Source of the DNA: Henricia sp. BOLD:AAB3569
Taxonomy: Eukaryota; Echinodermata; Asteroidea; Spinulosida; Echinasteridae
DNA: 64,000 bases
Direction: 5' to 3'
NCBI GenBank assembly: GCA_037783545.1
Contig: JBBELK010000525.1
Location: forward strand, 1,302,001-1,366,000
Program-made: the position numbers and the translations under genes
Shown here: positions 1 through 38,666 of the stretch, piece by piece
How positions within the stretch are numbered: position 1 is the first letter of the stretch
Layout of the letters: every line of letters starts with the position of its first letter
Notes under the pieces: generated by a model
Told to the model about the DNA's origin: nothing
Databases searched by the model: none
The model's input: only the letters and a program-made list of their open reading frames with translations

Positions 1-278
1 GTTTCATACCTGTATAAATAGTCTCTCTTTTGTCAATAACTTGTAAATATTGGGGGGAAATCAGTTGAATTTGGTGCAGTTCTGCAGTAACAAACTTTTA
101 TACGGCTGGAAATACAACTAACTTACAAGACCACGTGACTTTTCGGAACAAAAATTTGGTTCCGAAAAGTCACGTGACCTTGAATTTTTCAAAAGTACTC
201 AAAAACGGCCAAATTTGACGGCGTCCTTTCATGATATATCTAATTTACTCTCGAAGGCGCTTCAGAACATTATGTATG
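1..278. repeat. Partial copy of the 2.3-kb fold-back element, right-arm portion
   Basis: The first 278 bases repeat, in direct orientation, the sequence at about 5114-5365, and are the reverse complement of about 3116-3398. The copy breaks off at about 278, where unrelated sequence begins, so it lacks the last ~45 bases of the element end seen at 5411. Its left part, if any, lies before the window. It is probably a truncated member of the family described at 3071-5411. Confidence 0.8.
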
Positions 279-512
279 GGTCATGCAAATCATCGATATA
301 TATACAATGTATAATCATTGGATGAAGTATGCAATAGACTGTGACGTCAGTTGCCTTGGTAACTGGGTCTAAACATTCGCTGGTAATCTGAAACTTCTAT
401 TGGTGAAGCGCAGTGAATCAGTTCACTGGTTTTAGTGTAGACCTAGTAACCTTGGCAACACACAAACGGTGACGTTTTCAATTCAGTAGTCTATAGCAGT
501 TGGCTATACGAG

Positions 513-764
513 AATTGGCCTTTTTTAAGTATGGCGGACACAATAGGAGGGCGCACTTTGCAGTTGGTATAAAATCGACTAAAATGCAAAATAACTCAGT
601 TTTTCACTTTACACTTATTAATTTTATTTATAATTCTGTCTATGTATTATAATTACAACATGTAAATCAAGTTTTTGGAAAGAAATACAATTGATAAAAA
701 AATTCATACCCAAATGAAATTGCGCCCTCTCCTTTTGTTCCGCCATACTTCTAAAAGGCTAATT
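513..764. mobile_element. Inverted-repeat element (MITE-like)
   Basis: The arm at 513-553 (AATTGGCC, then TATGGCGGAC, ending in GGGCGCA) recurs inverted at 720-764 (TGCGCCCTC, then CCGCCATA, ending in GGCTAATT). The arms are about 40 bp with a few mismatches and the middle is AT-rich. It has no coding capacity. It abuts the next inverted repeat directly. Confidence 0.65.
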
Positions 765-936
765 GAAGCCAAGCGCCGGCCGCCATTGTACCCCACAAAC
801 AATGCTTGGCCTAGACTGCTCCCCGGTCCATGCGATCGCTTGCATTCCACTTAACACATGTGGACTAGTGAAGACAGTATGACCAGTCTAGGCAAGGCAT
901 TGTATTTGGTGGGGTACAATGGCGGACGGTGGCTTC
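765..936. mobile_element. Inverted-repeat element abutting the previous one
   Basis: GAAGCC and GCCATTGTACCCCAC at the left recur inverted as GTGGGGTACAATGGC and GGCTTC at the right. The inner arms also pair (AATGC, TAGACTG against CAGTCTA, GCATT). The imperfect arms are about 60 bp. It is non-coding. Confidence 0.6.
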
Positions 937-3070
937 AATCTTAGACGCCGTTGCTACATCCAGTGATTATGTATCGATGGTGCAAAAGCCCTCGATACCA
1001 GGGCCCAACTTCACAGAGCTGTTTAACAGCCCTTTTTCCGTTAACCGAGCGTCAGGCTATTTTATAGACATCGTTAACGGTAAGCAACTGAAAATAGCAT
1101 TAACGTTAGCACAGCTTTTCTGCTACAGTAAGCACACGTTTTCAGCTAGCGCTCAAGCAACTCTGAAATTGGCCCCTGGGCGTGAAATATTTGCGGACGA
1201 ACTCGATTTCCCATGGCACGAGGTTGTAGACAAGAGATTAAAGCGGTTGATATAATTCGACAATCGGTGTGTGAGTCCAGTGCACTCAGTTTCAACCGAT
1301 AGAGTGACTGCTTCTGGTAACTTTGGCAGATCATTGTTTCGGACACAAAGTGGAGTATTCTTGGATGTGTTTTAACTCGTTTGCATTAAGGTAGGTTTAC
1401 ATATTCTGTTAATAATTATTGAGCTGGCATTGTGTACACCAATCAACACAGATATATTGTGTGTAAAAGTCTGTGGGACAGGACAGAAAAATATATTTTG
1501 AAGTATTTTTGAGATGAACAGGAATGATGTTATGATTTTCGGAAAGTTAAAGGCCATTACGTATCATTTGCAGTGACAAGAAAAACCCTACTTTATAAAG
1601 TGTATATATAGCAATGGTAACAAAAACCACATGATTTTGTGTGTAAAATATGGTACCTTTGTGAAAGAAATTACAAACTGAAGGTGGTTTCTTTTTTAAA
1701 CATTTTCTGGAGAATATCACTGCATCTGTCTATAGTTGATATCCCCCCCCCCCCCAAGGTAATAGTTTTATCTGCAATATAATGCCCTTTAAAGATAGTA
1801 AACATGATTGGTAAACTGTTAAGATAAACTGTTGAAGATACTCATGATTGAAACCAACCTGAGCAAAAACCAGCTCCGTAATTTGTCTAACTTGTGAGAA
1901 AACAGTCAAAACATGGTTTTGGGGCGAATTGAATTTGTCTCATGAGACGAAAACTAATTGTTTTACTCATTTCTGAAAGACTATATAGCACTTTAGACAA
2001 AACCATTTTAGGGGGTAGTTTTCTACGGTCATCATGTTTATTTTGTGTAAGTTAGGCGTAAATCTGTTAACATCAGTATACACAGCACCCATGCATTTTG
2101 GACCGCGTAGATGCGAACTAAAAATAAGTAGATCGTTTGCAAACGATCTAAATAATTTCTGGTATTATTTTCTGGTAAAATTATATCATTTTGAGCGGAA
2201 ACCTTTCATTGGGTATAGTTGCTATTAATTCAATCTTTACTTTCAGAACTTTTCCCTGTAAACTCGTCGGTTACTTTTTTGGGTCATTGCAAATGATACA
2301 CTGGGCCTTTAAACGAGTGCGTATAAATTGGAACGTTTCAGAGAAATTTAGAAATTATTTTGTTAAGACCTGTAGGCCCACTGTTTTTCGGATTAAGTTT
2401 TCCTATTTCCTTTAATTTGCCATTAAGTTTCAATGTTATGCTCGTGAAAAGTCGTTAAAACGTTGAACGACCTGCATTGAGTCAAAACACCTGTTGTCAT
2501 CAATGTTAAAAAACAAATCCACGACACTGCTGTCATTTCGGAGAATCAAGACATTTAAATTTACGAGTTTCCGTAAACACGGTAACAAAATAATGCAACG
2601 GAATATACATGTATCGTGCCCTTCAGTTGCATTTGAAATAAATATTACTTATTTCGGGCATAAAATATATTTGGTGTGAGCATAGCTCCATGGTGTGAGC
2701 TATGGAAATAAAATAACCAAATACGGAGTGTGTGAGGACAAAAACAGGATATGAACAGGATGTGAACCCGAGTGTGCTTGGGCGATTCAGTACCACATTT
2801 TTGGAATCGAAAGTTGACACTAAACTTGGAAAAACTTGATACAAACTACTGCCAAATTCGTTGAAATTTGTAATTTTCGCACCTACTCCACGATGATACA
2901 CGGCGGTACTAGTAAACAAGTGCAGTCCATGCGGCGGACAACTAAAATAAATCCTGAGAATGATTTATGACTCTACACAAAAATTTGCTAAAATGCAAAA
3001 CTAAGAATTACTCAAAATAATTTTGTCGCGCATTGCACGTACACGCGCATGAGACGCGAGTTAACAAATT

Positions 3071-5411
3071 AAAGGAACACACCGGCTTTGTTGGGCTATT
3101 TTGGGCTCGAAATAGACCCATACATTATTCTGCAGCGCCTTCGAAAGTAAATTAGATATATCCCAAAAAGACGCCGTCAAATTTTGCCGTTTTTGAGCAC
3201 TTTTGAAAAAAAATCAAGGTCACGTGACGTTTCGTTACCAAATTCTGGTTCCGAAAAGTCACGTGGTCTTGTGAGTTAGTTGTATTTTCAGCCGTATAAA
3301 AGTTTGTTACTGCAGAACTGCACTAAATTCAACTCTGATTTCCCCCTAATAATTATAAGTAATTGACAAAAGGGAGACTATTTATACAGGTATGAAACAA
3401 CAGGTATGTTTGTTTCGAGAGTCCGGAGAACGGGAGCGAGCGCGTGCTACGGCAAGCTACCGTGGAGTGTAGGATAATTGCCCCGCGCAGCACGGCAAAT
3501 AGCCTGAGTGCACACACATGCAGGCGTGTTGCTTCGGTGTACGTTCGTTAAGAAAAAACATGATGCCAACTTCTCAAAAGAAAACGGGAATTCCTATTCG
3601 GTCGCCCGGGCTGTCCAGTGAAATCGTGAGCAGACAATTGGAGATCATCCTGCATGAGCAGGAGAAGAGCGAATCGTTTGTGACAAAGTCGTGAGGCTCG
3701 CGCGTATAGTTGCAACGGCTGGTAAAGCGTACAACCTGTCTTTTGGTCGTTTTTTTTTTAATTTTGCACTTCTTTACGGGATATTTTGAGGATCTTTTTC
3801 ACAACGACCATCAAAAAAGTATTGTCAATGCTGCTACATTACTAAATCATGTAAACAGTAGGCCGGTGTGTACCTTTAAACCATCATTTGATGCACATGA
3901 GGAACGGTGGTTTGAGCTACTTGGGGTGCTAGTCACAAACACACCAGGTACCTCATCCATAAGCAGTTACCTGCCTCATGTGTTCATGATTTTGGGACAA
4001 AAATGTGCTAGTGAAATGTTTACAGTGTTGTCTCTGGGCCGTCAGTGTAAACACCGAACCCACAAATTGGGGGTCATAAATTAAGCATGTGTCTAAACAC
4101 CGAACCCAAACATTGGAGGGTCATAAATTAAGCATGTGTCAAGCCCAGGCATTGGCAAACTGTACTGTGGATGAGTTGACTTGGAAATCAGTAAAGAGGA
4201 ATAAAAACGACTGAAAGTGCTGGCTAATTACATGTAGCACGGACAAGAAAATTGTCCATGGAAGGCCGTTTCCGCCCAACATCCCACAACGCACCAGGAG
4301 GTTAACAGCTGCAATGCCAAACTCGCCTCAACAAACAACTTCTCTTGACCTTGTTGATCCCCTGGCACTTGTTTTCTCAAGAAACCCAAGTTCACTATCA
4401 ATAATCCATTCGGGGAAACAAGGGGAGGGCCCCTCCCCTTGTTTCCCCGAAGGGGCATAAGGGGCACAATAATGCAATCTCCCACAATAATGCAAGACCA
4501 CTATGCAGCGGCGACGTAGCTAAAGGGGTGCGTAAGTATGTGCGTGTGTATTTGCCTCCAATCGTGGACGTCCATTATTAATAAAAGCCATAATTAATTA
4601 ATATTATTAATAATACCGGCCTACTGTTTACATGATTTAGTGATGTAGCAGCATTGACAATATTTTTTTGATGGTCGTTGTGAAAAAAAGATCATCAAAA
4701 TATCCAGTAATTTACTAAAGAAGTGCAAAATTAACAAAAACGGTCAAAAGACGGGTTTTACGCTTTACCAGCCGTTGCAACTACGCGCGAGCCTCACGAC
4801 TTTGTCACAAACGATACGCTCTTCTCCTGCTCAGGATATCTCCAATTTTCTGCTCACGATTTCACTGGACAGCCCCGACGACCGAATAGGAATTTCCGTT
4901 TTCTTTTGAGGAGTTGGCATCATGTTTAGTTTTTTGTATTCACGAACGTACACCGGAGCAACACGCCTGTGTGCACTCAGGCTATTTGCCGTGCTGCACG
5001 GGGAAAATATCCTACACTCCACGGTAGCTTGCCGTAGCACGCGCTCGCTCCCGTTCTTCGGACACTCGAAACAAACAATTATGTTCGAATTTTCATACTT
5101 ATGTTTAACTTTGTTTCATACCTGTATAAATAGTCTCTCTTTTGTCAATTACTGATAAATATTGGGGGAAAATCAGAGTTGAATTTGGTGCAGTTCTGCA
5201 GTAACAAACTTTATACGGCTGAAAATACAACTAACTCACTTTGGTTCCAAAAAGTCACGTGACCTTGAATTTTTCAAAAGTGCTCAAAAACGGCAAAATT
5301 TTACGGCGTCTTTTCAGGATATATCTAATTTACTCTGCAAAGCGCTTCAGAATAATGTATGGGTCTATTTCGAGCCCAAAATAGCCCAACAAAGCCGGTG
5401 TGTTCCTTTAA
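3071..5411. mobile_element. 2.3-kb fold-back DNA element with ~780-bp arms
   Basis: The arm at 3071-3880 is present inverted at about 4613-5411. The outermost bases are TTAAAGGAACACACCGGC on the left and GCCGGTGTGTTCCTTTAA on the right, so TTAA flanks both ends, as in piggyBac-type insertions. The single-copy middle is about 3880-4613. No full transposase is visible. Each arm does carry a related short open frame that starts Met-Met-Pro-Thr (3560-3694 on the plus strand, and an inverted version near 4843-4920 on the minus strand), probably a relic of an element-encoded protein. The element ends only 90 bases before the first codon of gene 1. Confidence 0.85.
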
Positions 5412-5500
5412 CAGTTGAACAAGAAAAAGGAATGAGAAGAACACCCAAAGCTGATACCGTTCTTTAAAGTTTTTCTCATGTTATTTACAGGGAAAAGACG

Positions 5501-8500
5501 ATGGGGCAGTCGGCCATTCTAAGAGCATTCATTGCAGCAATTCTGATAGCAACGGCCGTAAGCACTACCACTGACAACCCCAAGAGAAAGCGCCCTCCAG
5601 CGGTCTTGTCTAACATTTCCTTTCGCAACCTGACGGGACGTCCTCTCCTCCCCGGAGAGCTCAATGAAGGCGATGGAGACACGTTGATGTCATCACGTGA
5701 CATACAAAGGACGCTGAGTAGCCACAACGAGTACCGACGCCAAGCTAAAGCAAGTAATATGCAGTACATGGTAAGACTGACGTCTATGTCCGAATTTATT
5801 TTGATTGTCTGACTTGCCTGGCCCCCTGGTCGTCTTAGCAACAGTTTTAGCGTCCCGCTGTTTGTTTTTGAGACTGTTTGTATGATATATGTTTGTGTGT
5901 GGTGTCTTCTTTGCACTGCTAATCGGACTTGGGACGTCAACTGACTGACGTCACGCCCCAAAGAAAAAGTCGTACATCCACACAGTGAACGCATTTAAAG
6001 GAGCGTACAAGTCCAGATTACATTTTTGAGCCCCCAGTTTTTCCCATAGGTGTTAAGATTTTGATACCATATAATTTGTCATACATATTTTTCTTAATAC
6101 CGTTTTTTTTTATTTTGCACTCTTATTCCGTATATTTTCAAGGATATCGTAAAAAAAACACTGATGTTTTGTGAACTAATTTATCCGTTCCGTAAAGCAG
6201 TACAATGATTACACCAACCTTTTGGCTTCCACATCCAAATTGGAGATTGCAAATTTCCTGTTGTCTTCCTATGGATAGTATTTTTGGGAGGTATTTTATG
6301 TTAGAATGTAATCCATTTTCTAGAAATAATTGGACAAGCTCCGTTAAAGCTTTCTTCGGTTCGGGTTCGAGTTCGGTCGGGTTGTGAAAACCACGAACAT
6401 ATTTGACTGACTTTTGCGTCGCGACATATTTTTGACCTTGTTCCATATTATGTTTCCATGCTTTCGTTTAAGAGCCGATGAACTCTGATTCATGCCGTTC
6501 GGGGTCGCGAACGAGTACCTCGTGTCACCCGACCACCCGAACTCGGCCTAAATTTGATCCTTTTGTGTGACCTGTAATATAGACCTGGGATGCCACACTA
6601 GCCACGATGTCCCAGCGTTGGGCCGAACGATGTGTATTCGATCACGGCTTCGGTGAAAACATCTCACCTCACGAATCGATAGGACAGAATCTGTGGCTGA
6701 GGACTGGCGAACGGGACAAGCCGTTGTCAGGCGTTGCTGCAACAGACGACTGGCATGATGAGATCCAGTTCTACAACTACGAGAGTGATTACTGCTCCGA
6801 TGTCTGTGGACACTACACACAGGTAACGTGTGTCACTCTTAAACTGTTATAGTCCCACCACAAGGCATGGCAAATTTTGGTAGGGGTGGGGAAAGGGATC
6901 GGAAAGGGCACTAATACGAACAAGAACACTTTCGTGAATAAACAAATATACATACATCCTCTTTATGGTTACATCGGAATTCAATGACAACCAGTAATAT
7001 TAACTGATGTTGTCACGTGGTGTGTACAGGTGGTGTGGGCAGAGACTGACAAGGTTGGCTGTGGATTGGCGTTCTGTGGTTATATCAGCGGCTACCGAAA
7101 TGCCTGGAACATCGTCTGCAACTATGGCTCTGCGTAAGTATAGCTAACCACGCTGTGTGCTGACCGTGCGCCGGCCGTGTGCCGGCAGAGTGCCGGCAGT
7201 GTGCCGGCAGTGTATCGGCAGTGGGCAGGCATTGGGCCGGCTGTGTGACGACCGTGGGCCGGCCGTGTGCCGGCAACGTGCTGTGTGTATCGGCAGTGTG
7301 TGTGTGTGGGCATTGCGGTCGCATGCACAATTTGCGGGAAAAAGTGATGGATTGTGGACTTGCACTCGTTCGCTCAAGTCAACAGTCATGTTGTCCAAAC
7401 TTGGGAAAAGGGGTTAGGGTGGGGGTGGAGGGTTAAAAAAAAAGGTTAGGGTTCAGGAGTAAAGTTTAGAAACATGGATTAGGAAAAAATTGGGGTGGAT
7501 GAGGAAAGAATTTGGTGAAAACAACGATTTTCCGACCAAAATAGTTTGGCCTCATGTCCACAGTGCGTACGTAATGTACACATTTGTGTGTCGGCAGTGT
7601 GCCGGCACACTGTCGGTACAATAAGAAAGTTCACCATTGTGCTGGTAAATCTTGAGAAACTTTAGTCATATATTGTGGTTTCAGCTTAATTTGTTTACCT
7701 TTTTGTAGTGGCAATTTCCAAGGCGTGCGGCCGTACAAGACAGGACCCGTCTGTACCGACTGCGCATTGTCTGTTCCATTTTGCTACAATGGTCTTTGTC
7801 GTAAGTAAACTCGGTTTATTTTATTGAAAAAAAGGTGTTATATTTTGAATAATCACAATAACTCAAGGTTATTTCCTGATAGATAATTCAAAATTTGAAT
7901 TTTCTCTTCTCTTTTTGCAGGTCTTTGTAACATAGAAGAGGCAGGGTGTTGTAAGTATTAACCTTTACGCAAATTAATGCAGATTTATGCAAAATGTGAC
8001 GTTAATTTCGACACTAAAATTACTTTCAGTGTGAAATAGGGCCTATTCTATATCAAACACATGGCATTATTAAATATATATTTTATTTGTTGTGCATTGT
8101 TCGTTAAAGGTTTTGTGAGGTGAAAATTATCACCCAGCTGTTTTTATACAGAAATCAAAGGATCAAAGTGTTGCAGACAAAGGGGCAAACTCAAATTTGT
8201 TTTCATTTCAGAAAGAAGTGACATTTTCTCTACTTCAAAAATGTCTTGTCAGGCGAGGGCGCTGTTTGTTGCTGGTCATGGAGGGAACCCACAGTGGAAA
8301 AACAAAGAAAGGATATTACATTTCAAACAGTAGCAGTAGCCCACTGATCCATTTTTGACCCAAACAAACTTGTTAGGGTTGTTGCAAATGACATACTAAA
8401 CAAACTCAGCAAACTTATATAGTTCATGATATCAAGAAGCCACTGAAAATGACATTAACTTTTGTACACAAGTCTATGGAGAATTCCTCTGTTTTTCCTG

Positions 8501-11500
8501 AGATGACATCACGGCTTTGCTCATGAATATGGAAATTCTCATTAACATAAAAATAGAAAACGTGCAATTACACCAAAACGCAACTATCAAATTCTCTGAA
8601 ATTGACCGAAATGTGTAAAACACATCCTCTACTATTATTTTATGTAATAAAAACCCTATTTCACACGTCCTTTAAATTTCAGCTTGCCCGCTCGCGTGCC
8701 AGAATTGCGGAGTTTTGAACAAGGACAAATGCTACTGCGATTGTCCAAACGGATTTCACGGGGCTCAATGCGCCGGTAAGTGTGCAAGTATATAGACTAT
8801 AATATAGCACGTCCCTTGTGATGTAACTTTAAAGATTGATTACATGATTGGATGGGTATGACAAAAAACCAACCTGTGTATACGTCAACTCAGTACCTCA
8901 CGGTTCTGATAATACAATGAAAAACAGAGAGTTATTGTCAATGATGCTTACAATTCTTTATTTGCTCATCATTTATGCCACATTTCCATCCTTGGTTTCT
9001 TACTTGAGATGATTGCATGGACACCCACTACAACTGCAGGGCGAACCCGGGATGGCCCGGCCCGTCCGCTTGTTCTTGGGCCCCGAACATACCCAAGGAC
9101 TGCCCCCTCATGTGCGGGGAATGTCGTAAGTATATAACAGTGGTTTCATCTTAATATTCTTTTAAAATATATTGATAATTCCATACCGTAAGTCACATCG
9201 CAAATCACACCGCCAGTCATATCACATGTAACATCGCATATCACGTCGCAAGCCATCTGTAAAGCCGGCCGTATATACACCTTCTGCGATAGCGTTGCGA
9301 CGGACACGTACACAGAATCGTGACCACATCGCCATCTGAACGCATCGCAAAACCTGTACATCTTGTGATGCGACTGCACAACATGCGCTATCGTGATCGG
9401 ATCACGGACGAAACACAATGTGTACGGCCGGCTTAAGTCACATCCCAAGTTACATATATGTCACTCTCAAGCGATGTCACAACTCTCGATCTGTAACAAC
9501 AATTTTATTTCATTTTCATTTCTGTTTTCAGAGGCAAGGGATCCAGGCTTCACGTGTGGTAAGATTTAGTAACTAAATATAAAAAAACAAAATCCCTTTC
9601 ACACGAAAACAAAAACCCAAATCAGGTAATCTTAAATGTATTCACAGACATCGGTAGATAATGTATTTCTGTACCCATTCTTCCCCGTTAATTTGGACCA
9701 GATCCCAACCAGCCTGCCCCTGGCCCTGTCCCCGGGCCAGACAGCAACCCCACTCCAGACCGCCTCTGCAACACAGTGTTCAATTCTATTGCTATGATCA
9801 ACGGAGAACTTCACGTTGTCAAGGTATGTGACGTCATGTGACCCTGCCCATGTTTGTGATCAGGGTGTTTTGTTTTATCATACAAAACAGAAATTTAAAG
9901 TACGTATTCATGCCTGCACACAATGAACAATCTGGACATGAGGCCAAACTATTTAATGCAAGCCTCACTTTGGTGACGTTGATTTTAATATGGGAAAGGG
10001 AAGATATTAGAATCAACGTAACCAAAGCGAGGCTTGCAGAAAAAAATAGTTTGGTCCCGTTCTGAAATTGTTCATTGTGTGCATCACATGCACAATGGCA
10101 CAGGCGTTGCGCGATCACAAGAGCGCCCAGCGCGGACAGTGATTCTCAACGGGAGGGGAGATTACACGCGCTATCGCACGGTAGCGCAGACGCACTGATC
10201 GAACCCAACACATACTATGGGGAACAAGACAAAAATGGACACACCGTGATAAAAGTCTATTACCCCTGGTCATAATGTTTGTAATAGCATTCCTTAATTA
10301 GACCTTCTCGGATCCTCTGTGAGTAACTGAGTATGCAGCTGGCTACTTGATGAGCGCTCATGAGTCAATCAAACAGCACTTCACTGCCCTCCCAGGCACC
10401 CATTTGCTCCCGGGTGGAAAGAGGACATTTTATGGCAAAGTGCCTAGCCCAAGGGCACACGCATCATGGACGTCGACAGGCCTAGTTTCGATTTCATGAA
10501 AAACCAAGGTCTTAAGTTGGATGCACTGAATCACTTGTTCAAAATTAGTTTATGTAAATTATCCTTTTGAGGTATTTAGGAAACGTCGGTTACAGTGCCA
10601 TCATTTTAGTTTTGAGTTCAACTTTTAAGAATCAAAATGTGACGCCATTTGTTTACCCCATTCACTACTAGTTGACCCTTTACCTAACTACGTGTTTACA
10701 GGGTAAGGCGTTCTGGCGTTTCGACCAGCAGGGCAGACTTCTGTCCCCTTCATCCGGGGAGTTACTTAAAAGCTATCACCCTCTGGTAAAGAAAGGGGTG
10801 AAGGGACTTTACCAGATCGGAGTGGAGGGATCTCACAGAGACACCATCTCAATGATAAGGGGTAAGGATTGGCCTGAAATGTCCGTGGGTTGCAGTTTGA
10901 GTAATGACGAAAGATTATTTGTAGTTCTAAGTTTTTATTCATGTCTTTAGACATCTCAATGGCTTGGCTGCCGGAGATACTGCCTATATGTATCTGGATG
11001 CTCACGTGAAGCATCCAGATACATATAGGCAGTATCTCCGGCAGCCAAGCCAGAAACACCCGAAAGAACCCTTAGTGCGAACGAATGGTCTGGGATCTTT
11101 TAGGTGAATTAATACACAACACGGTTTTACATCCTATCCAAAGGATTAAGCAATTGGAATTACGCGCCCTGCTCAAGGGCGAAAATATGCTTCGGGTGGT
11201 TTCGAAGCCTGCAACATCAGGAAGCTTCCGCCAGCTTGCTTGCGAGTGACCTAAAACCGCTCGACCGTGGTACTGCTTGTTTTAAACTGCAAAACAAAAT
11301 GTTCATACTGTATTACTATCAGTAGATGTAGACAACACGTGAACACTTTCCACGTGTCCATTGTATTTTCTGTATCAGGTAAAAAGATTTGGCGATTTGA
11401 CAGTGCAGGCCAGAAGCTTGGAGGATGGCCTAAGAGTCTACGCCAGGATCTTGGAATGTCTCTGCGTGTCGTAGCCGCTGTGCATGACGAGCGATATGGT

Positions 11501-13179
11501 ATCACGTACATGATCACGTCGCAAAACTCAGACGTGTATGAATATGACGAGAACAGAGAGGAACTGGTGCAAGAAATTCCGCTTGGAATCAATACGGTCT
11601 TCTCCGGGTTACCGAACAAGATTTCGGCTGCGTTCCGCAGTAACGGTAAGTATATAGACCTTTTGCAAAGCGGCCATGAACTGAGGGCAGTCACATTGTC
11701 ACCGTGCGTTTGTGGGGTGTTATGGCCGAGCGGTCTAGTGCGTCGAACTTAAGTTCCTGTGCTAGTACTAGAATGTAGGTTCGATTCCTGGCCGTGACGG
11801 GTTGTGGCACCTGTGCCCTTGAGCAAGGCACTCAACCACACTTGCTCCCATTCCTGTAATTGGCGGTCCCTCCGCTGTTGGATGTGGTAAAATAAATAAA
11901 TAAATAAATAAAAAAATAAAAAAATATCATTTAAAATTGAAAATATGCCATAATCATATGAACCAAAGTAGATTTTGACGCAATTAAAAACCATGTTTAT
12001 GAGGCTCACAGTGGCGTTATTATCAACGTGTACACACTAATACAATAATCTGTGTGAAACTGATAAAGGACTTTATATCGGCATATGCGACCTATCTTCT
12101 GATCCCTCATGAAATGTACTATGTGAACGATTTAACTGTACTCGTTGAAGACTGTACACTGGTAGATCATTGCATACTTATTAAAGATACAGTCCGTGGT
12201 TCTCAGCAAATTAGAAATTGTTTTCTCCGAACGAATTTTCAAAGCATTTACTTTATTTTAACGAAACAAATATATCATATTTTGTATTTTAGACATCGAC
12301 AACCCTGTGAAAAAACCGCCGTTTTTATCCTGCCGTTTTGCGCCTTGCCTAGACTTGCCAAGATCTGACTTCCTGTGTTTGGTCTATGATGCGGTGCGTG
12401 CGGCCTGCTATGTCAAATCTCTCTTCTTCTGTCTCGAAAGACTTTCTGAGACAGAAGAAACAGAAGAAAACAGATTGGACATGCCACCGGTCCAGATGGC
12501 GCACTGTGTCCTGCACGTTGCAGACCGAGCACGGCAGGTCAGACTTGGGCAAGTCTACGCCTTGAATTATTGGCGGACCGCAACAAATTCGAAAAATTGA
12601 CAGTTAATTGTTCGATAACTAAACTTTGTTCGATTTTGTGATGTCTCATTTAAAAGCGATTAACATCTATGTTTTCAGATAATTATCAATTTTAAAATAA
12701 ATTATTGTTCGAGGTGCCACACCCAAAACCACGGACCACATATCTTTAAGCGCTGTTAAACAAATGCGATTTGCTTAATTAAAATCCAAAATGGCAGCTC
12801 ACTACTTGACCATACTAGCGAGCAACAATTCCAGATTTTCTTCCACGACCATAGGCCTAAGTGGTAAAAATCTGCGACAGCGCCTGCAACATGTTTCTCA
12901 CGGTTGTGGTCTCCATATAATACAAAGAATCAGGCTGCCTCACGAAATATCATTGGTTGACAGATGGCGTTTTTTAAATTTATTAGAAATTTTAACAAAT
13001 TGTCAGAAGTTCAAAAACACGTTTCAAAAGGTTGTTTTAAAACTGGCTCTGTTTTTATCGTCCATACCACAGGGTACTTCTACTTTCAGCGCGGCAAGAA
13101 GGTCTATACTGTCAACGAAAGGACCATGTCCGTTGAAGGAATTCCGGAGATTTTCGCTGAAAGATTTTTGGGGTGTTGA
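5501..13179 (+). CDS. Secreted CAP / EGF-like / ShK-like / hemopexin protein (gene 1)
   Basis: Twelve coding exons joined in frame give 542 aa: 5501-5770, 6583-6822, 7030-7133, 7709-7800, 7921-7950, 8683-8775, 9009-9125, 9532-9558, 9702-9823, 10702-10861, 11379-11645, 13073-13179. Residues 1-21 are a signal peptide. The CAP domain spans about 70-230, with cavity residues His75 (HNEYR), Glu150 (WHDE) and His167 (GHYTQ); the usual GEN motif reads GQN (Gln125), as in some insect antigen-5 proteins. An EGF-like module follows (246-276), then a six-Cys ShK-like module (279-315), a Pro-rich linker, and four hemopexin repeats (347-542) bounded by Cys347 and the C-terminal Cys542, as in MMPs. There are WRFD motifs in repeats 1 and 2. 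The product is extracellular with no protease domain. An acceptor-like site (TTATTTACAG) at 5481-5490 suggests an upstream 5' UTR exon, which was not found. The function is unknown; a CAP scaffold with an MMP-like binding domain is the inference. Confidence 0.85.
5995..6347. mobile_element. MITE of the TTAAAGGAGYGTGACCAG family, in gene 1 intron 1
   Basis: It starts with TTAAAGGAGCG and ends with a decayed inverse (GGACAAGCTCCGTTAA). The internal motifs 'ccatataatttgtcatac', 'aggatatcgtaaaaa' and 'attggagattgcaaatttcc' recur in the copies at 33843, 51290, 53065 and 55906. It is non-coding. Confidence 0.7.
7145..7315. repeat. GTGTGCCGGCA minisatellite in gene 1 intron 3
   Basis: Degenerate tandem units of about 11 bp (GTGTGCCGGCA and variants such as GTGTATCGGCA and GTGGGCCGGCC) run for about 170 bp, only 12 bases after the donor site of exon 3. 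A small second cluster sits near 7587-7617. Long open frames on both strands here are an artefact of the repeat period and GC content. Confidence 0.85.
8170..8675. repeat. Dispersed repeat similar to 13393-13971 and 62430-62840
   Basis: The motifs 'gagggcgctgtttg', 'tgacatcacggctttgctcatgaatatg' (in parts) and 'cattaacataaaaat' recur in the same order in the TTAAAGGGCCCC element at 13393-13971 and in the copy near 62430-62840. It lies in intron 5 of gene 1 and is diverged and non-coding. Confidence 0.5.
9913..10082. mobile_element. Palindromic MITE in gene 1 intron 9
   Basis: The outer arm GCACACAATGAACAAT recurs inverted as ATTGTTCATTGTGTGC. The inner arms also pair (GCAAGCCTCACTTTGGT with ACCAAAGCGAGGCTTGC, and GTTGATT with AATCAAC). 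It is about 170 bp, almost wholly inverted repeat, and non-coding. Confidence 0.7.
10961..11051. repeat. Perfect 42-bp-arm hairpin in gene 1 intron 10
   Basis: Positions 10961-11002 are exactly reverse-complementary to 11010-11051, with a 7-base loop (CACGTGA). It lies 99 bases after the exon 10 donor site. No mismatch was seen in 42 pairs. It is either a recent inverted duplication or a very young fold-back element; a pre-mRNA carrying it would form a strong stem. Confidence 0.9.
11714..11925 (+). mobile_element. tRNA-derived SINE with (AAAT)n tail, gene 1 intron 11
   Basis: The head is tRNA-like, with an A box (TGGCCGAGCGG) and a B box (GGTTCGATTCC at 11778-11788), then a body with 'cttgagcaaggcactcaacc' and a tail of AAAT repeats. 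The core 'gagcaaggcact' is shared with the SINE at 57811. It is non-autonomous. Confidence 0.8.
12190..12740. repeat. Dispersed repeat, sister copy of 41230-41680
   Basis: Long similarity to 41230-41680 is visible: 'ctccgaacgaatttt', 'aaagcatttactttatttta', 'caaccctgtgaaaaa', then an inverted repeat with 'ttcttctgtctcg', then 'ttgttcgataactaaac' and 'tcgaggtgccacacccaaa'. It lies in gene 1 intron 11. No intact coding sequence was recognised. Confidence 0.7.
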
Positions 13180-13392
13180 ACTTAATTTGGCGAATGACTC
13201 AACGAAGTTGTTTTAGTGAGTGAGATATGGAGGTATTTTTTAGACAAAGTTGCACTTTAATAGTTCATTGATTTTGATAGCGTAATGTACCGGTAATATA
13301 CATGTACATGAATTTTGTTTATACACTATATAGTGGTAAATTCTATATTGCACACATTTTCAGATTCCGACAGCTTTCAAATTTATGCTAGC

Positions 13393-13971
13393 TTAAAGGG
13401 CCCCTAAAATGCTCAATAACTTTATGCACAGTTTTTGCTGCATATAAAGGATTACTTGCGTAGAAAGACAATACTACGGTTCATTTTGATGCCCCATGGC
13501 ATTTTTCAACTTTGAAAATTTCTTCACATAAACTCACAGAAAGAGGGCGCTGTTTGGGGCATGTCACTTTAGGAACACAAAGCAGAAAAGCAAAGAAAAA
13601 ACATGACTTCAGACTGGAATTGTGGAAAAATGCTGCAGTTTCCAGCCTTAGTTTTTTCATGGTTTGCAACAGGCAACATGTAAAACAAACCTAAACTGTC
13701 ATGGGTTACAAAAGTTTCAGCAAGTTGGGAAAATTTTTTGAAACTTTTGTGCACAGTTGAATAAGATTTTCCTGTGTTTTCCTAATGTGACATCACCACT
13801 TTGCTCATGCATATGTAAATTTTCATTAGCATAAAAATCAAAAACCTTGATTTTAACCCCCCCCCCCCCCCCCAAACAACTTCCAAGTAAGGTTTTAATG
13901 ATTGTAAATTAATGGACTAGTTCCATAGCACAGATTTCATTGATAAAAACACCATTTTAGGGGCCCTTTAA
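13393..13971. mobile_element. TTAA-flanked element with AAAGGGCCCC ends
   Basis: It begins TTAAAGGGCCCCTAAAAT and ends ATTTTAGGGGCCCTTTAA, an 18-bp terminal inverted repeat including TTAA. The interior is non-coding with a 17-base C run near 13858. Related diverged copies lie at about 8170-8675 and 62430-62840. The TTAA ends resemble piggyBac-type non-autonomous elements. Confidence 0.8.
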
Positions 13972-14103
13972 AGGAAGAGGCTCGTCAATGCGCGCGTGAG
14001 GCTAATTTCGTGCCACGAAATACGCAGCTCCATCCTGAAGGGGCGTTCACACTATCGCGGAAAAATGGCTTTGCGCGCAGCTTCTCCATAGGTTTGTACA
14101 AAA

Positions 14104-14342
14104 ACTGGGCCCAATTTCATGTAACCTGTTAGTACACAAATTTGTTTAGCACATAATTTCTTTGCTCTGTAAAATGGGTTACCAGCCAAAATTTTATGTC
14201 AAATTGTATTTTTAGGAACAGGAGCAAAATATCAGTAAATACACATCAAATTTGGCTGGCAACTCAGTTTTGTAAAATAAAGCAAAGAGATTCTGTGCTG
14301 AACAAATTTTTGTGCTAACGGGTTCCATGAAATTGGGCCCAG
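14104..14342. mobile_element. Inner palindromic MITE (TGGGCCCAATTTCATG ends)
   Basis: The left end TGGGCCCAATTTCATG pairs with the right end CATGAAATTGGGCCCA. Further inside, GTTAG and ACAAATTTG pair with CAAATTTTTGT and CTAAC. It is about 239 bp and lies inside the 14038-14900 element. Confidence 0.75.
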
Positions 14343-14506
14343 CAGCCGATTTCACGAAAAAATTCGTAGCTTGCGCAATTTTTCAAAATGCCATAAGCCC
14401 CATAGGCTTGCGTGTAATCATCACAGGAATGTTGCGCAGCTTACTTAATAAAAAGCTGCGCAAGCGGGCTTACGCAGTGTGCAAGGATTCGTGAAATCGG
14501 CTGCTG
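14341..14506. mobile_element. Second inner palindromic MITE (CAGCAGCCGATTTCACG ends)
   Basis: The left end CAGCAGCCGATTTCACGAA pairs with the right end TTCGTGAAATCGGCTGCTG. The inner arms carry CTTGCGCA/TGCGCAAG and AAGCCC/GGGCTT. It directly abuts the 14104-14342 element inside the same host element. Confidence 0.75.
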
Positions 14507-14898
14507 GTTTTGCCACTTGCGCGTGGCTATCGCGACTCGCAGAACGTTTTGAGATGGGTCAAAGTTCAAATCTGTTGAACTTTGACCGCGGTGCGCTGAC
14601 CTTTCCAACGCGCAGCCAATAGACAGCCGAAGTGTAACGTAGGTTGCCATGGCATTTAGTCGTCGGAAAAATGGCCGCCGGGAAAAGTACCATTGCAAAA
14701 GCACAGGGACACGGTTTAGTGATTTTTAGTGTAGAGCCAATTGCCTAGGCAACCAACAAAAGATGAAGTATTCACTTCGGCAGTCTATAAGGTATCAGAG
14801 AAGCCCCAAGTTACCGCAGTTATCGGCTATTGGGACATCATGCAATGCGGTGAGCGCAGCGCGTCAGTGTGATTTTTCCGCGATTGTGTGAACTCCCC

Positions 14899-15267
14899 TT
14901 AAAGGAGCGTGACCAGAGTTTCTGGAAAATAGTTTTCGATGTAACTTACCAATATTATCAAGTAACTCCCATACATACCTCCCATGTCCCAAAAACCCGA
15001 AAACATTCGCAATTTCCAGTAAAAAATTGAACAAAACTATCGAGTATGCTTTCAGCGGATAAACGTTGATACTGGAAAATTAGTTTACAAATAATCGGTG
15101 GATTTTCGACGATATCCTCGGAAATATGCGGCCTAGAGAAGCGCGGGAGTTTCAGTTTCGTAATCAGAAAAATATAACGGATGTTATGATATAAAAATCT
15201 CATGACCCATAAGGTAAGTCCCGGGGAGTTATGGGTAAAAAAAAGTGATCTGGTCACACTCCTTTAA
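14899..15267. mobile_element. MITE, TTAAAGGAGYGTGACCAG family
   Basis: It begins TTAAAGGAGCGTGACCAG and ends CTGGTCACACTCCTTTAA, an 18-bp terminal inverted repeat with TTAA at both ends. Its left end abuts the nested element at 14038-14900. It shares its ends, but less of its interior, with the copies at 5995, 33843, 51290, 53065 and 55906. Confidence 0.8.
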
Positions 15268-16193
15268 CAGCAATTTCATAAGAGATGCGCTTTTAATTGA
15301 GTGAGCGAGGTAATAGCCAAATTCAACACTAATTGCTTTTTGCTGCTTCAGGTTTCGAACCTGGAATTCGGAAGTGAATCACTCTCTCATTTTCGACTCT
15401 TGAAACCGGTACCCCCGACGGTAGCGTGTGCCTGTGAGATAAACGTCTACGTGTTGATACATTTCCAAGTTACACTTTCTGAAACTTTGATGTGGGAAAT
15501 GCTGTACTTGTAGGTGGGAGGTAAAACATACATGGCCCAACCCCCTAGGAGACCACCAACAATATGGATATTCAGATACAGTGCACCAGTACAGTTGAAT
15601 AGACCGATTCAGTAAGCCCCGCCCACGTGGAAACGCGTCTAGCAACTTTAAAGTGCGCAGAATCATTAGATTGTTTGGATCACCAAAAGACCACGTGGAT
15701 CACCATTGTCCTTCAAAATTATTGGTTGGTGGAAATTTCGGGGGCGGGGCTTAAACGCTTCTGGATGGGTCTATTAGACGACAAGAAAACCATCCGAGAA
15801 ATAATTATATAATCAGCTCTTACTTTGTTTTGTTTTTCACAAAATATGCGTTTCGTGTTTTAAAACCTTATTGTTATATACATGTAGGATAGTTTTACCA
15901 TGGAGATAGCTCCATGTTTTTACATATATGCATGCATGAAGAAACAAATAAAAGTTTGATATAGCTGATTATTTTGTTTGGATCCTGTTAATTTCACTCA
16001 AAAGAAAACAGATTGTCTTAACGAGGTTGCATACACTTTTGAATTCTCCAAAACCTTTTCTCCATAATTATGTAGATGACGTAAGCAAGACTGATATCTG
16101 TGTTTTTTTAGTAACGCGAAATGACATTTTTCGTTCAGAATTTGTGGGAATGCATGCACGTCTATATTTTTCCATCTAATATTTTGACCCATA

Positions 16194-17260
16194 TGGGTGC
16201 ACCCAACGTAAATAGGCAGAGATCAGTGCACCGAGCTCATGAATATTTTGTATGCCCTCAAATTCTTCTTTATTAGAGAGAGAGAGTTGCTAGCTGAACG
16301 AGTGTGGTTAGTGGGGAAACTGGCCATCATAGTGATGTGGGGCATTTATTTCTTCCAAATATACAAACATTTTGAAGAATGTAGATTGTTAAAGTTGCCC
16401 TATTTTTCCAAAATGGACGCTGGCATGTGTGGCAATTTTCACTCTTTCATGGGTAGTTTTGTTTCATGTGGAAATTAGGGAATAAAATGACGGATTACCC
16501 CCATAAAATTGAACAGAATTTAAAAAGATGAGACTTCAATGAGTATTGGTTGTTGTCCTGAGTAGCTCAGAGAGTTGTGAGTATTTTTAAATGATTTTTG
16601 AAAATTGGGCATTTAGCATTGGTTCCTATGGGAGCCCTATTTATTTGGTTGCAACCATATAGGCCAAAGATCTACGAAAAACAAAACCTTGTGCTTTGAC
16701 CGCATGTTTTGTAGTTATACGTGCGAATTCTTCAATAAAACAAGCGGTTTAGTCATAAGAGAGATTTATATCATTCCACGCATTGTAGTACAAACATATA
16801 GGGTGCACCCAAGTAAATATAGGAACCAATGCTAAATGCCCCATTTACAAAAATCATTAAAAAATACTCACAACTCTTTCAGCTACTCAGGACAACAACC
16901 AAAATACTCATTGAGGTCTCATCTTTTCTATTCTGTTCAATTTTATGAGGGTAATCCGTCACTTTTATTCCCTAATTTTCACTTGAAACAAAACTATCCC
17001 TGCAACAGTGAAAATTGCTAAACAGACCAGCGTCCATTTTGGAACAAAGGCACATATATACGCTACTGGGCAAAATAGGGCCACGTTTAGGAGCTACATT
17101 GTCCAAAATGTTTATACATGTAGTTGGAAGAAAAAATACCCCACATCACGGCGATGGCCACATTCTACACAAGACCACACTCGTTCAGCTCGCAACTCTC
17201 TCTAATAAAACAAAATTTGAGGGCATCACGGATCTCTGCCTATTTACTTGGGTGCACCCA
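16194..17260. mobile_element. 1.07-kb fold-back element with TGGGTGCACCCA ends
   Basis: The left arm (16194 to about 16640) is inverted at about 16820-17260; examples are 'aaataggcagagatc' against 'gatctctgcctattt', and 'tagcattggttcct' against 'aggaaccaatgcta'. Both outer ends carry the 12-base palindrome TGGGTGCACCCA, and a third near-copy (GGGTGCACCC) sits at the inner edge of the right arm at 16801. It is non-coding. A partial related copy lies at about 42960-43110. Confidence 0.85.
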
Positions 17261-17805
17261 CAAAGAACTTCGTGGGCCCGTCCATGTTTTCCTACGTATA
17301 TCATTAGTAACAAAATTCTAAGTCCCCAAACCTAGTCATGGGTTTGGATGTGGACACAAAGTGGATCAATTACTCGGCGCGCTGTTTTCATTCCCGCCCA
17401 CCCTTTGGCATTTCTTGAGGATCATCTTATTTCCCTTCAATCCAGGCACGTGGTTACGTGACCGACGTCTTAAGAAACGATGCCAGTTGAGTGTGCCCTT
17501 GATCTAATTAGTGTAAACCTTGTTCTCAGTGGGGTGAGGTGAACATTGTAACCTCTGAGGTTACCACCTCAAGTTCATCGCAAGTCCGGTGATAATAATA
17601 GAACAAAAAGATCATTTACACCAGTCCTCCACAATTACAAACCCTGTTTCAACGAAGGATTGGTCACGCAGAGTTCATTTTTCAGTTTATATGATGGCAT
17701 TGAACTTGAATCAAGGCCCAGTGACTTGTGGTGGACTTGTCAAGGCTTGTGAGGACTTGGACCTCTTTCCGTTACGGCCATTTTAGCGGAGCAATCAGTA
17801 TGAAC

Positions 17806-17960
17806 GGGAGTCAGATGGCATAGCGGTTCTTTCTTCGCCTTGACCTCTGGCGCTCTGGTTCGAATCCCGCCCGAATCATTATGTGGATTGAATTCTCAGT
17901 CCCTGCTTGATTAAAAGTGAGCATTTCTTCCTGTTCTCTCGCACTTCGTGGCCATGCTGA
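17806..17960 (+). mobile_element. tRNA-like SINE fragment
   Basis: An A-box-like stretch (TGGCATAGCGG) and a perfect B box (GGTTCGAATCC) are about 40 bases apart, as in a tRNA-derived Pol III promoter. There is no cloverleaf convincing enough for a tRNA gene and no clear tail. Confidence 0.45.
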
Positions 17961-18185
17961 AAACTTCCATAGGTGGCTTCTATAGCGTTTTAACAATGGA
18001 CGTTTGAGATTACCAGCGAATGTTAAGACCCAATTACCATGGCAAGAAACGTCACACTTCAGTAGTCTATACCTTGGTATACATCAGTGCGTACACAGAG
18101 TCACACAGTTGGTGGTATTGCTGTGCTCGCTCACGAAATCGCTTCAAGAAAAAAACGAGGTTGACGGATTAGGCATGGTTGACCG

Positions 18186-18196
18186 TATATAAAAAA
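18186..18196 (+). promoter_or_regulatory. TATA box of gene 2
   Basis: TATATAAAAAA lies 58 bases before the gene 2 ATG at 18244. A start site about 30 bases downstream would fall at the CCAGTCAG stretch (18214-18221), giving a 5' UTR of roughly 28 bases. This also supports the ATG choice. Confidence 0.65.
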
Positions 18197-18243
18197 GGGA
18201 GAATTTTGGGTGGCCAGTCAGAACCGCTATAGCAATTAGCAAA

Positions 18244-21200
18244 ATGAGACGAGCTTTAGCGATGGTTCTCCCGGGTCTACTAGCCCTGGGAGTCGGAGCA
18301 GCGATATTACCACTTGAAAATGATGAGGATGGTGATCTACCGAAGAGTTTGGTGAAGCTACCGTGGGCGATTTTTGCCTCTAAGACCGGCGAGAGGGGAG
18401 AGCGGACCGCCCGGGCTACGTTCGGACAGACGGACTTCGGCAAAATAGCCATCAAAAAGATCCTCGCTAAACACAATGAGTATCGAGAAGCCGTGTCACC
18501 ACGGGCTTCCAATATGAAGTACATGGTGAGTTAAATGGGACATCAATAGATTGAAACAATAATAACTTGCAAAATACTCTTAAATTGTTAAAATAATTGA
18601 ATTATTTGTAATTATATTTAGGAATGGCTACGAAATTCAGGTTTTATGAATGACATTAGTCACTGGAAGATAATATCACCCGCATGTCTGTAAAGTGAAA
18701 AAAAATCGTAAATTTTTTTCGTATGTTTCTTTTGTTTCATGAATCCCTGCATCTTCCCTAAATTAAGATGTTTGTTATATTTTTAATTGAGACAATTTGG
18801 AGCTCACTTTAAGGTTTTTAGAATTCGATAATGTAATGTCTGTGTCTTCTGTAAATATTTGTAGAGTTTTACATTTTAGTTCAATTTTTAGAAGCTTGGT
18901 TTATGTGCTGTTCACAAAAAAAATAAGACTCGAACGAAGTTTTCTCAATTTCCATTTTCCGTGTTTTCTACACTAATTGATATTATAAGGCATATTTGAC
19001 GAGTTTATGTTATCACTCCAGACATATTATTTACTGCACAAAACACGAAAAAAATTAAAGGCCGAAAATTTTGAAATTTTGGGAAAATGTCGTTGGAGTC
19101 TTATTTTTGTATTAGTATTGCAATATATGTTCCCTCGGTACTGCATCATGAGCGTTAGTAGGATTCCACAAGAATTATCAACACGTAAATAAAATAAATC
19201 CATAATCAGTTTAAATTTTTAAAATTGAAAAAAAAGGGTAACCAACAAGTTAATATTAGATAAATGGAAGAAATTAATCCTGTGTGTTTCTCTTGTCGAT
19301 TTGGACAGACGTGGGACCCCGTGCTAGCGACCATGGCTCAGCAGTGGGCCGAGCGATGCCGCTTTGAGCACCCATCAAGCACCGCCAGTAACCCCTCCTC
19401 CTTTGAACGCGTCGGACAGAACATCTTCGCTCGCGAAGGCAATCCGAACAAACCGATTCCTGCAGCCGAATTTGTGCAACACTGGCACTCGGAGGTGTCT
19501 AGTTATAACTACAACAGCAACAACTGCCCACCGCAAGATTGTGGTCACTATACACAGGTACGTACGCAAAACTAAGCCCATGCACGCTTGCGATTTACGG
19601 GCACACCGGACACCGGACCATTGGTTGCGGAAAAAATCAAACAAGTCTGATTTGCCCCGATAGTTCATAATACGGTCGGTCAGATCGGCCCGAAGTTACA
19701 GCGCACACCTTTCCGATGTGGGACGATAGGCCGATTGGCCGGTAAATCGCAAAGGTTTGCGGCGGGCTTTAAAGAGAAGAAACCTGCATGTATTGTTTCT
19801 TAAGAAGATTTTAAAAATGCAAGTTTAGTTTAGATCGAAGTTGTTATGTAGCGCGTTTTATGTCTGTCGACATACCAATAATGCACTTTATTGGTTAGAT
19901 TTTTCACGCACGTTTCCCGCCATAGAGAGGAATTTAATTTAACCCACATTCCATACTGAAATAACTTTTCATAGATCCCAAGTCTTCACTCTTAGGGGCC
20001 CAAGAGGAGCGCCTTTACTTCCGGTGCCAATCAAGTGCCAATCTTTTCCTCTGGAAAGGATCATGGCCACGCCCAATGTAACATTTTGTTTTTATTCATA
20101 CTAAATTGCCATTCAGCCAAATTGAATTATGAAGGTAAGACGCTATATACAAAGTACATGTATAATTTTGAATGTGTTATATTGGACTGCAGCCGTCAGT
20201 TAGCCTACTCTAATATTTATGGGCACCATAACCCGTTATGACCCATGATTTTACTGCTAAGATGCATTGTGAAAAATACGTATTGCGATACTTTCGAGGC
20301 TCAGCGCCATAAGAGGGTCGGGTCATTTCGGCACCTTTTCTCTCAAACTAATTTGACGAAAGATTCATAACCTTAAAAATAATGTGTTTACGTAAACGAC
20401 ACTCTCACGACTATAAGAGTCGACCTGGGCATAAAAATATCAATTTATTTACATTACTTAAAAAGATAATGAATGTTAGTTACATTCTCAAGAATTGAAA
20501 TGGTAATTTATGGACATCTGCAGTAAATCTCTGTAATATCAACAAAGCCAAATGGAGCAATTTTAAGCATAAAATGCACAGAGCTGCGGTGGATTTTTCT
20601 CTTAGCGATGCCCACATTCGAAAGCTAGCTAAAAGGCAAACCGCTCAATTTATTATAATTGTGTATTCAAATTCATTTTTTAAATTTTTCGGGGTATAAT
20701 ATGAGCTTGTGCACAGATTTTGCACTGTATGCATTTCCATTGGTCTATTGTATATTGGTGCGGGTCCGACTTGGTCAGGGTCCGACTTCGTCCGATTTCA
20801 ATATGCGCCAAATTCATACAGGAAATACCCATTGTGACCGATGGTTTCAAATACCCTTTGTGATCCGGAGAGTCTAGAATTACCGTCATGTAAACATGAA
20901 CCCGGATTCGATTACTACCTTTTATGATCCGGGCTGTATAGAATTACTGCATGTCGTGTAAACATGGTTTCGGGTGCGATTATTGTCCGTTCGGGTGCTA
21001 CATGTAGGCTATATCTGATAACCCGCAATGCTGGCCATGCAGATGTGTCAAAATGTGAGAAGTTTTCCGTTGAGATACTTGTTGGAAAATTACAATTAAA
21101 AACAAACATCTGGTATGATGCCTGATCACCATTGAAATGAAACAACCAAACTTGGGATGAGAGAAAAATCGCAAGGGCCTTATTGGGATTCAAACCCGAT

Positions 21201-28431: not shown

Positions 28432-28716
28432 TAAACAGACAGTGTATTGCGACAAATTTTGATGACGCAAATTAAGTCTCAACTGATTGGGAAGATATTT
28501 TCTCACGTGCATTGGCAAAATGCAACAACTGACAATTTCTTATAATTGTCTTTTTTATGCCTCCATTTAGAATCATCTAAGTCCATGTTGTACATAGAAG
28601 CAATGTAGCAAGGGTTGTACTCGCGTCCATCACAAGTCTGGTGATGACAAAAATTCAAATCCATCACGTCAAGTCCTTCACAAGTTCACCACATGAACCA
28701 GGTACCATGGTACCAC

Positions 28717-29090
28717 GGGGCATCGTGGCCGAGCGGTCTAGTGATCCGAACTCAAGACCTTGGTTAATTCTGCAGGTCGTGGTTTCGAATCCGGGTCTGC
28801 CCGCGTCCATTGTGCGTGTGCCCTTTGCCAAGGCACTTTGTCAAGGCACGTTGCCATGAGATGCCTCCATCCCCCCAGGAGGAAATTGATATACCTGTGA
28901 GGGTAGTGAAAGCTGATGTGTTTGATTAGTTCCTGTGCGCGTAAGCTGCACGGGACTGCATGCTCCCCAGGGGGTTGAGAAGGATTAAGGAATGATATTA
29001 CAGAGCCCAATGAGCGGGATGATAATGTGACAGCGCCTTGAGCATCCTTGGGATGGATATGTGCACGATATAAATGTCATCATCATCACC
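28717..29090 (+). mobile_element. tRNA-derived SINE
   Basis: The head has an A box (TGGCCGAGCGG) and a B box (GGTTTCGAATCC), as in a Leu/Ser-type tRNA. The body contains 'ccaaggcactttg' and ends near 'gcacgatataaatgtcatcat', a common tail form for tRNA SINEs. It is longer (about 370 bp) than the copy at 11714 and has a different body. Confidence 0.75.
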
Positions 29091-29155
29091 ATAATCACAA
29101 GTCCAGTTTCAGACAACGAAGGATAAACACACACCAAAGAATGTCTTTGTTGCTG

Positions 29156-38550: not shown

Positions 38551-38666
38551 TAACCTTCCAAAAAAAATTTATAAAATATAAATCCCTCTGTAGGGCTTGG
38601 TAAGCTCACGTGATAGCCAATCCCAACCGGGAACAACTGCACTACAGTGATTCGAGACCACCAGTT

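Follow-up and report, generated by a model that had tools for sequence, protein, structure and literature searches.

A predicted CAP-EGF-ShK protein with a hemopexin tail encoded among matrix metalloproteinase genes of the sea star Henricia

We analyzed a 64,000-nucleotide window of the Henricia sp. BOLD:AAB3569 genome (assembly GCA_037783545.1, contig JBBELK010000525.1, positions 1302001-1366000; the contig is called C525 below, and other contigs are named likewise) and found a gene, gene 1, whose predicted product almost certainly joins a CAP-EGF-ShK protein to a hemopexin domain of the matrix metalloproteinase (MMP) type. Rebuilt from the bases, gene 1 (5501-13179, forward strand) has 12 exons with GT-AG borders, consistent phases, 542 codons plus a stop and no internal stops. 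Its domain order is CAP, CRISP-like hinge, EGF-like module, ShK-like module, proline-rich linker and MMP-type hemopexin. The exon structure, the domains and the point at which the tail was exchanged are established at the level of the sequence. We give roughly even odds to a further reading – that gene 1 encodes a secreted-type, non-proteolytic mosaic which took its hemopexin exons from the surrounding MMP cluster and in which hemopexin docks a CAP/ShK effector.

A Pfam search of the 542-aa product placed both CAP (PF00188, aa 72-202, E 1.8e-20, 74.4 bits against a curated cut-off of 21.1) and Hemopexin (PF00045, E 6.9e-10, 39.1 bits against a cut-off of 21.3, in two stretches) above cut-off. 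The original prediction had assigned a linker and four hemopexin repeats, with Cys347 and Cys542, to exons 9-12, and the assignment held. Pfam finds two of the four repeats; we accept the other two because the product of exons 9-12 aligns along the hemopexin domains of structurally solved MMPs (best MMP-13, E 4.4e-16, query residues 10-192). Cys347 and Cys542 are the sole cysteines of the hemopexin part, align with the bracketing cysteines of the nearby genes MMP-A, MMP-B and MMP-C, and are predicted to form a disulfide. Similarity to the MMP-A hemopexin domain is beyond chance, since it scores 81.6 bits and the best of 319 alignments to 500 shuffles of MMP-A scored 22.7 bits. Consistent with the claim that the product is not a protease, gene 1 contains no HExxH zincin motif and, by eye, no PRCG switch; MMP-A and MMP-B carry both the HExxHxxGxxH zinc motif and the PRCG switch. 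Lacking a zinc-protease motif, the gene 1 product is thus not an MMP.

The amino-terminal part is that of a CAP protein. The signatures GHYTQVVWAET and CNYGSAGNF and both histidines are present, and one glutamate of the CAP His/Glu tetrad is a glutamine in gene 1 (IGQNL) as well as in its neighbour gene 2 (VGQNI), judged by eye against the motifs of the family. The EGF and ShK labels fared less well than claimed: the cysteine patterns fit reasonably, but with the modules cut out alone every Pfam match lay below cut-off, both for ShK (E 0.056 in gene 1, 0.093 in gene 2 and 0.0026 in a paralog on C1047) and for EGF-type families (E 0.023 in gene 1 and 0.0052 in gene 2). Searched as a single 112-aa piece, the hinge-EGF-ShK stretch of gene 1 matched no Pfam family.

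The point of fusion can be located by comparison with gene 2, a paralog that starts 5 kb past the gene 1 stop on the same strand. The two genes agree in the order and phase of their first eight exons, with identical residues in 48.9% of 278 aligned columns, down to the 27-nt exon 8, which encodes ARDPGFTC in gene 1 and ARDRNYSC in gene 2. Past exon 8, gene 1 continues with hemopexin exons and gene 2 with a single lysine-rich exon (calculated isoelectric point, pI, 12.0), both tails starting at phase 1, as does the MMP hinge exon in MMP-A, in MMP-B and, by reading, in MMP-C. We could reproduce the predicted join, a phase-1 boundary after a 27-nt exon (9532-9558, phase 1 to 1) in the phase of the MMP catalytic/hinge boundary. 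The same is true of the parallel drawn between gene 1 exons 9-12 and exons 5-8 of MMP-A (113, 145, 303 and 140 nt to the stop) and MMP-B (116, 148, 306 and 137 nt), in which the phases are identical. Judged from these exon borders, the exchange between the two tails is clean and falls at one phase-1 intron.

Gene 1 might instead end after exon 8, with exons 9-12 being the relic of an MMP copy that forms a second gene or a read-through artefact. The locus holds several MMPs, including MMP-C upstream on the same strand; the gene 1 hemopexin has diverged far, and no AATAAA or ATTAAA occurs in 13180-14000, downstream of the exon 12 stop. However, intron 8 spans only 143 nt and contains no polyadenylation signal, leaving little space in which a promoter and an exon for a signal peptide could fit; translation continued beyond exon 8 ends at a stop once three further codons are read; and in window 1-18240 the MMP-A and MMP-B queries matched no pro- or catalytic exon (E up to 5). 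All four exons are open and show coding-like codon use within their GT-AG borders; scores derived from the codons of gene 2, MMP-A, MMP-B and the first eight exons of gene 1 peak in the true frame in each. Random noncoding draws, taken from the same noncoding pieces as the codon-score background, equalled the scores of exons 9-12 in 2 of 2680, 6 of 2639, 0 of 2359 and 56 of 3000 cases, respectively. We consider the relic explanation very improbable. Gene 1 looks like one intact gene, and its expression is predicted.

Two related candidates were set aside. Exons 9-12 as a separate gene were rejected on the strength of the 143-nt intron, the absence of a polyadenylation signal within it and the lack of a pro- or catalytic-exon match. 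A lysine-rich alternative last exon for gene 1 was not found on the forward strand of 9559-18240, where runs of five consecutive K/R were sought in open stretches of at least 15 aa. The interval between gene 2 exon 8 and MMP-A (27640-30840) gave no MMP-like match, and two weak MMP-like matches within gene 2 (E 2.4 and 2.5) were taken as chance. Coordinates are collected in Table 1.

Table 1. Gene 1, its tandem paralog and the MMP genes of the window (window positions)
Feature	Position	Strand	Description	Basis or remark
Gene 1 exon 1	5501-5770	+	Start codon, signal-like stretch, start of CAP	Spliced model; signal peptide by inspection only
Gene 1 exon 2	6583-6822	+	CAP core	Pfam CAP aa 72-202
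Gene 1 exon 3	7030-7133	+	End of CAP	Spliced model, Pfam
Gene 1 exon 4	7709-7800	+	Presumably the CRISP-like cysteine hinge	Exon from spliced model; hinge by inspection
Gene 1 exon 5	7921-7950	+	30-nt linker exon, phase 1-1	Spliced model
Gene 1 exon 6	8683-8775	+	EGF-like module, phase 1-1	Model; EGF-type Pfam match (E 0.023) below cut-off
Gene 1 exon 7	9009-9125	+	ShK-like six-cysteine module, phase 1-1	Model; ShK match (E 0.056) below cut-off
Gene 1 exon 8	9532-9558	+	27 nt, phase 1-1, closes the CAP part	Counterpart is gene 2 exon 8
Gene 1 intron 8 (join)	9559-9701	+	143 nt	No AATAAA or ATTAAA
Gene 1 exon 9	9702-9823	+	122 nt, phase 1 to 0; proline-rich linker, start of blade I, Cys347	Equivalent to the MMP hinge exon
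Gene 1 exon 10	10702-10861	+	160 nt, phase 0 to 1; hemopexin blades I-II	
Gene 1 exon 11	11379-11645	+	267 nt, phase 1 to 1; hemopexin blades II-IV	
Gene 1 exon 12	13073-13179	+	107 nt, phase 1 to stop; end of blade IV, closing Cys542	
Gene 2	18244-28431	+	CAP-hinge-EGF-ShK tandem paralog, 9 exons, 388 aa	Terminal lysine-rich exon 28280-28431 where gene 1 has hemopexin
MMP-A	30852-37107	-	8 exons, 522 aa	Zinc motif, hemopexin domain
MMP-B	44938-53932	-	8 exons, 548 aa	HEIGHTLGLDH, hemopexin domain

Genes 1 and 2 sit among MMP genes. Besides the two in the window, MMP-C lies directly upstream on the forward strand at about -9532 to -2681 (C525:1292001-1302000; the span is given without the first exon); its hemopexin exons, at -5007 to -2681, run in the same direction as gene 1 and include an intron that MMP-A and MMP-B lack. 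MMP-D, whose sequence is an approximate join, lies ~72 kb beyond the window end on C525. A tRNA-Asn gene (anticodon GTT, 38666-38740) separates MMP-A from MMP-B. Upstream of gene 1 we observed a large foldback-like inverted repeat at 3069-5411, consisting of five nested ungapped arm pieces that together span ~800 nt per side and are 94-97% complementary; the element ends 90 nt before the gene 1 start codon, and a related end lies at 1-267.

To what extent the hemopexin exons can be traced to these neighbours was examined in the 740.7-Mb assembly and by phylogeny. A genome search with the gene 1 hemopexin (E up to 10) returned 10 matches – its own four exons, MMP-A exon 7 (E 5.1e-4) and five weaker ones, including C147:2549833 and C256 – and thus a single copy of the domain at that threshold. 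Identity is 29% to MMP-A, 25% to MMP-B and 26% to MMP-C, compared with 35% between MMP-A and MMP-B. A hemopexin tree of 10 rows, built without the MMP at C147:2578003, whose several hemopexin exons stayed unjoined, united MMP-A and MMP-B as sisters (97/94) with gene 1 outside. In the best tree the partner of gene 1 was vertebrate MMP-1/13, at a non-significant 54/77, and approximately unbiased (AU) tests that grouped gene 1 with MMP-A, with A+B, with C, with A+B+C or with D rejected none of the five placements (p 0.195-0.337). A phylogeny of the repeats had been part of the original proposal; it delivered the MMP-A/MMP-B pair and left the placement of gene 1 without support. Because no AU placement was rejected, the phylogeny speaks neither for nor against a neighbouring donor. 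A recent copy of MMP-A or MMP-B was rejected as unsupported, given the 29% and 25% identities and the sisterhood of those two genes. Of the proposed exon transfer from a neighbouring MMP, what stands is that MMP-type exons were joined at a phase-1 boundary; MMP-A or MMP-B as the donor is not established.

The calculated pI of the hemopexin domain is basic in all five C525 domains (gene 1 and MMP-A to MMP-D; 8.45-10.0) and acidic in all five others (4.64-5.68), a contrast weakened by the partial length of every acidic row (122-189 aa), the approximate join of MMP-D and the relatedness of the rows. The basic pI shared by the five C525 domains favours an origin of the gene 1 hemopexin within the C525 cluster, which we judge somewhat more probable than not. 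The exons could alternatively derive from an older or more distant MMP outside the cluster, their adjacency being coincidence or the result of later gathering. The exclusion of gene 1 from the MMP-A/MMP-B pair fits such a donor, as does the pairing with vertebrate MMP-1/13, non-significant as it is. Yet genome-wide the top non-self match, MMP-A, lies in the very window that holds gene 1, the basic charge is common to the C525 domains, and gene 1 has its phase 1-1 exon undivided, like MMP-A, MMP-B and MMP-D, while MMP-C has its extra intron. We regard a distant donor as the less probable explanation, albeit one with a substantial chance of being right.

Further observations weigh against a cluster-derived mosaic that docks through its hemopexin domain. 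The gene 1 hemopexin is a long branch (1.52) that was not placed among the MMPs, in a tree with two of its seven inner branches starred. None of the three blade-start aspartates of MMP-1 (FDAI, DAAV, DAVF) is found in gene 1 by eye, and MMP-A retains the first; partner binding of the gene 1 domain may therefore differ. The coding score of exon 10 (0.222) barely exceeds that of its best wrong frame (0.203), and the EGF-like and ShK-like modules fall short of their Pfam cut-offs.

We also looked for CAP-EGF relatives of gene 1. A genome search with its CAP-EGF-ShK part gave 33 matches (E up to 10), and beyond genes 1 and 2 CAP and EGF matches coincide on C1047, C412 and C368; C705 and C746 carry near-identical copies of the C368 locus. 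As in gene 1, CAP is followed by EGF-like exons in gene 2 and at C1047, C412 and the C368 group, and an ShK-like exon is present in gene 2, C1047 and C412. At C1047 one EGF-like and one ShK-like exon were seen; at C412:2117001-2137000 a run of several EGF-like and ShK-like exons comes after a CAP-family locus. These arrangements suggest a CAP-(EGF-ShK)n family that varies in repeat number. Unlike gene 1, none of these loci was followed by hemopexin in the sequence read, which at C1047 covers ~17 kb downstream of the ShK exon, at C412 ~11 kb beyond the final EGF exon, and at C368, C705 and C746 5-10 kb after the EGF exon. Because the last exon of gene 2 differs and no hemopexin was found in the sequence read behind the other CAP-EGF loci, gain of hemopexin in gene 1 is the simplest reading, and the sequences favour it over losses elsewhere.

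No second CAP-hemopexin gene was seen in the genome, within the limited sensitivity of the searches. A whole-genome PF00045 scan gave 11 matches, among them C451, C386, C274 and two more places on C147, and detected none of the hemopexin exons in gene 1, MMP-A, MMP-B and MMP-C. Its silence on the other CAP contigs proves little because it missed gene 1 itself; short, diverged hemopexin exons are easily overlooked in genome searches. A tree of the CAP domains of four paralogs was not resolved (AU p 0.393 and 0.396). In this tree gene 1 (5501-9125) has a branch of 0.24, compared with 1.3 for gene 2 (18244-27201), 2.25 for C1047 and a likewise longer one for C368, which hints at stronger constraint on gene 1 than on its paralogs.

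Two side observations concern the assembly. The CAP-EGF locus shared by C368, C705 and C746 is 99.96-99.97% identical over 5.5-6.0 kb and more divergent beyond, and the copies are perhaps uncollapsed haplotypes or assembly duplicates. COX1 occurs four times, on C955 and C2104; three copies on C955 are spaced 16.2 kb apart and apparently represent tandem mitochondrial genome copies in the assembly. The COX1 sequence makes sense when AAA is taken as Asn, ATA as Ile and AGA as Ser; this is the echinoderm mitochondrial code, also used by flatworms, and it supports an echinoderm source.

How could such a protein have arisen, and what might it do? An MMP of the C525 cluster, or a copy since lost, would have supplied hinge and hemopexin exons downstream of a CAP-EGF-ShK gene, to which phase-1 splicing would have joined them. 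The CAP/ShK part would be the effector and would bind lipids, or membranes and channels, in the manner of CAP and CRISP proteins. A passage of PMC11103991 implicates CAP domains in the binding of sterols and acidic lipids. The basic hemopexin domain (pI 9.0) would be the docking module, a role that, by analogy with MMPs, we hold to be about as probable as its opposite. Docking would hold the effector on the matrix or on hemopexin-binding partners such as collagen, TIMPs or LRP1-type receptors: a section of PMC5146981 describes binding of LRP1 by MMP-13 via its hemopexin domain, and one of PMC7290391 describes binding of the hemopexin domains of MMP-2 and MMP-9 to the C-terminal domains of TIMPs. 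The lysine-rich tail of gene 2 could dock similarly via anionic glycans.

The gene 1 hemopexin might, on the other hand, be a decoy that competes with nearby MMPs for collagen, other exosite ligands or TIMPs and so tunes MMP activity. A protease-free hemopexin domain beside three MMP genes, with MMP-A as its best non-self genome match, would suit this role. With 25-29% identity to the hemopexin domains of MMP-A, MMP-B and MMP-C, however, shared ligands are not assured, and the CAP part is left without a role; we find the decoy explanation unlikely, though a reasonable alternative. The original prediction had named both competition and delivery of CAP/ShK modules. Either function is possible, and sequence cannot separate them from matrix tethering or receptor docking.

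Echinoderms have mutable connective tissue. Gene 1 could stand for a new class of protease-free hemopexin proteins, made by exon shuffling in an MMP cluster, that brings a CAP/ShK effector to the matrix or receptor sites used by the surrounding MMPs and acts there as modulator or targeted effector. We think this broad proposal rather doubtful; if it were true, echinoderms would gain a built-in modulator or targeted effector at MMP sites. A CAP protein with a hemopexin propeller would offer a natural test of the role of that domain without a protease. Genes 1 and 2 preserve well an exchange at a single symmetrical intron, with the alternative tail ~15 kb past the gene 1 stop. The interest of gene 1 lies mainly in this clean exchange point and in its place among MMPs, and the gene would matter more if it were conserved across echinoderms.

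No paper about a CAP-hemopexin protein was among the matches listed in a search of the open-access literature (titles and abstract openings), and a term search of the main text of a review of echinoderm MMPs (PMC8467561) gave 0 instances each for ShK, fusion and cysteine-rich secretory. The closest layout is that of CLEC18, for which a passage of PMC11103991 gives the architecture CAP, EGF, EGF-like and CTLD. Like gene 1, CLEC18 combines CAP and EGF modules with a recognition domain at the C-terminus; in gene 1 that C-terminus is hemopexin, not a C-type lectin, and an ShK-like module is added. In the gene 1 product Pfam gave only CAP and Hemopexin (E up to 1), with no C-type lectin domain. In CRISPs, CAP is followed by a hinge and directly by an ShK-like ion channel regulatory domain. 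Gene 1 shares the CAP, the cysteine hinge and the six-cysteine ShK-like module (a match below cut-off), but differs in the EGF-like exon between hinge and ShK-like module and in the hemopexin tail. Hemopexin propellers are found mostly on MMP proteases, and also in hemopexin and vitronectin. With MMPs gene 1 has in common the hinge and hemopexin, the closing cysteine pair and the exon phases; unlike them, it lacks a propeptide, a cysteine switch and a catalytic domain. Because exon shuffling commonly yields new domain combinations in animals, gene 1 is best seen as a fresh case of a known process.

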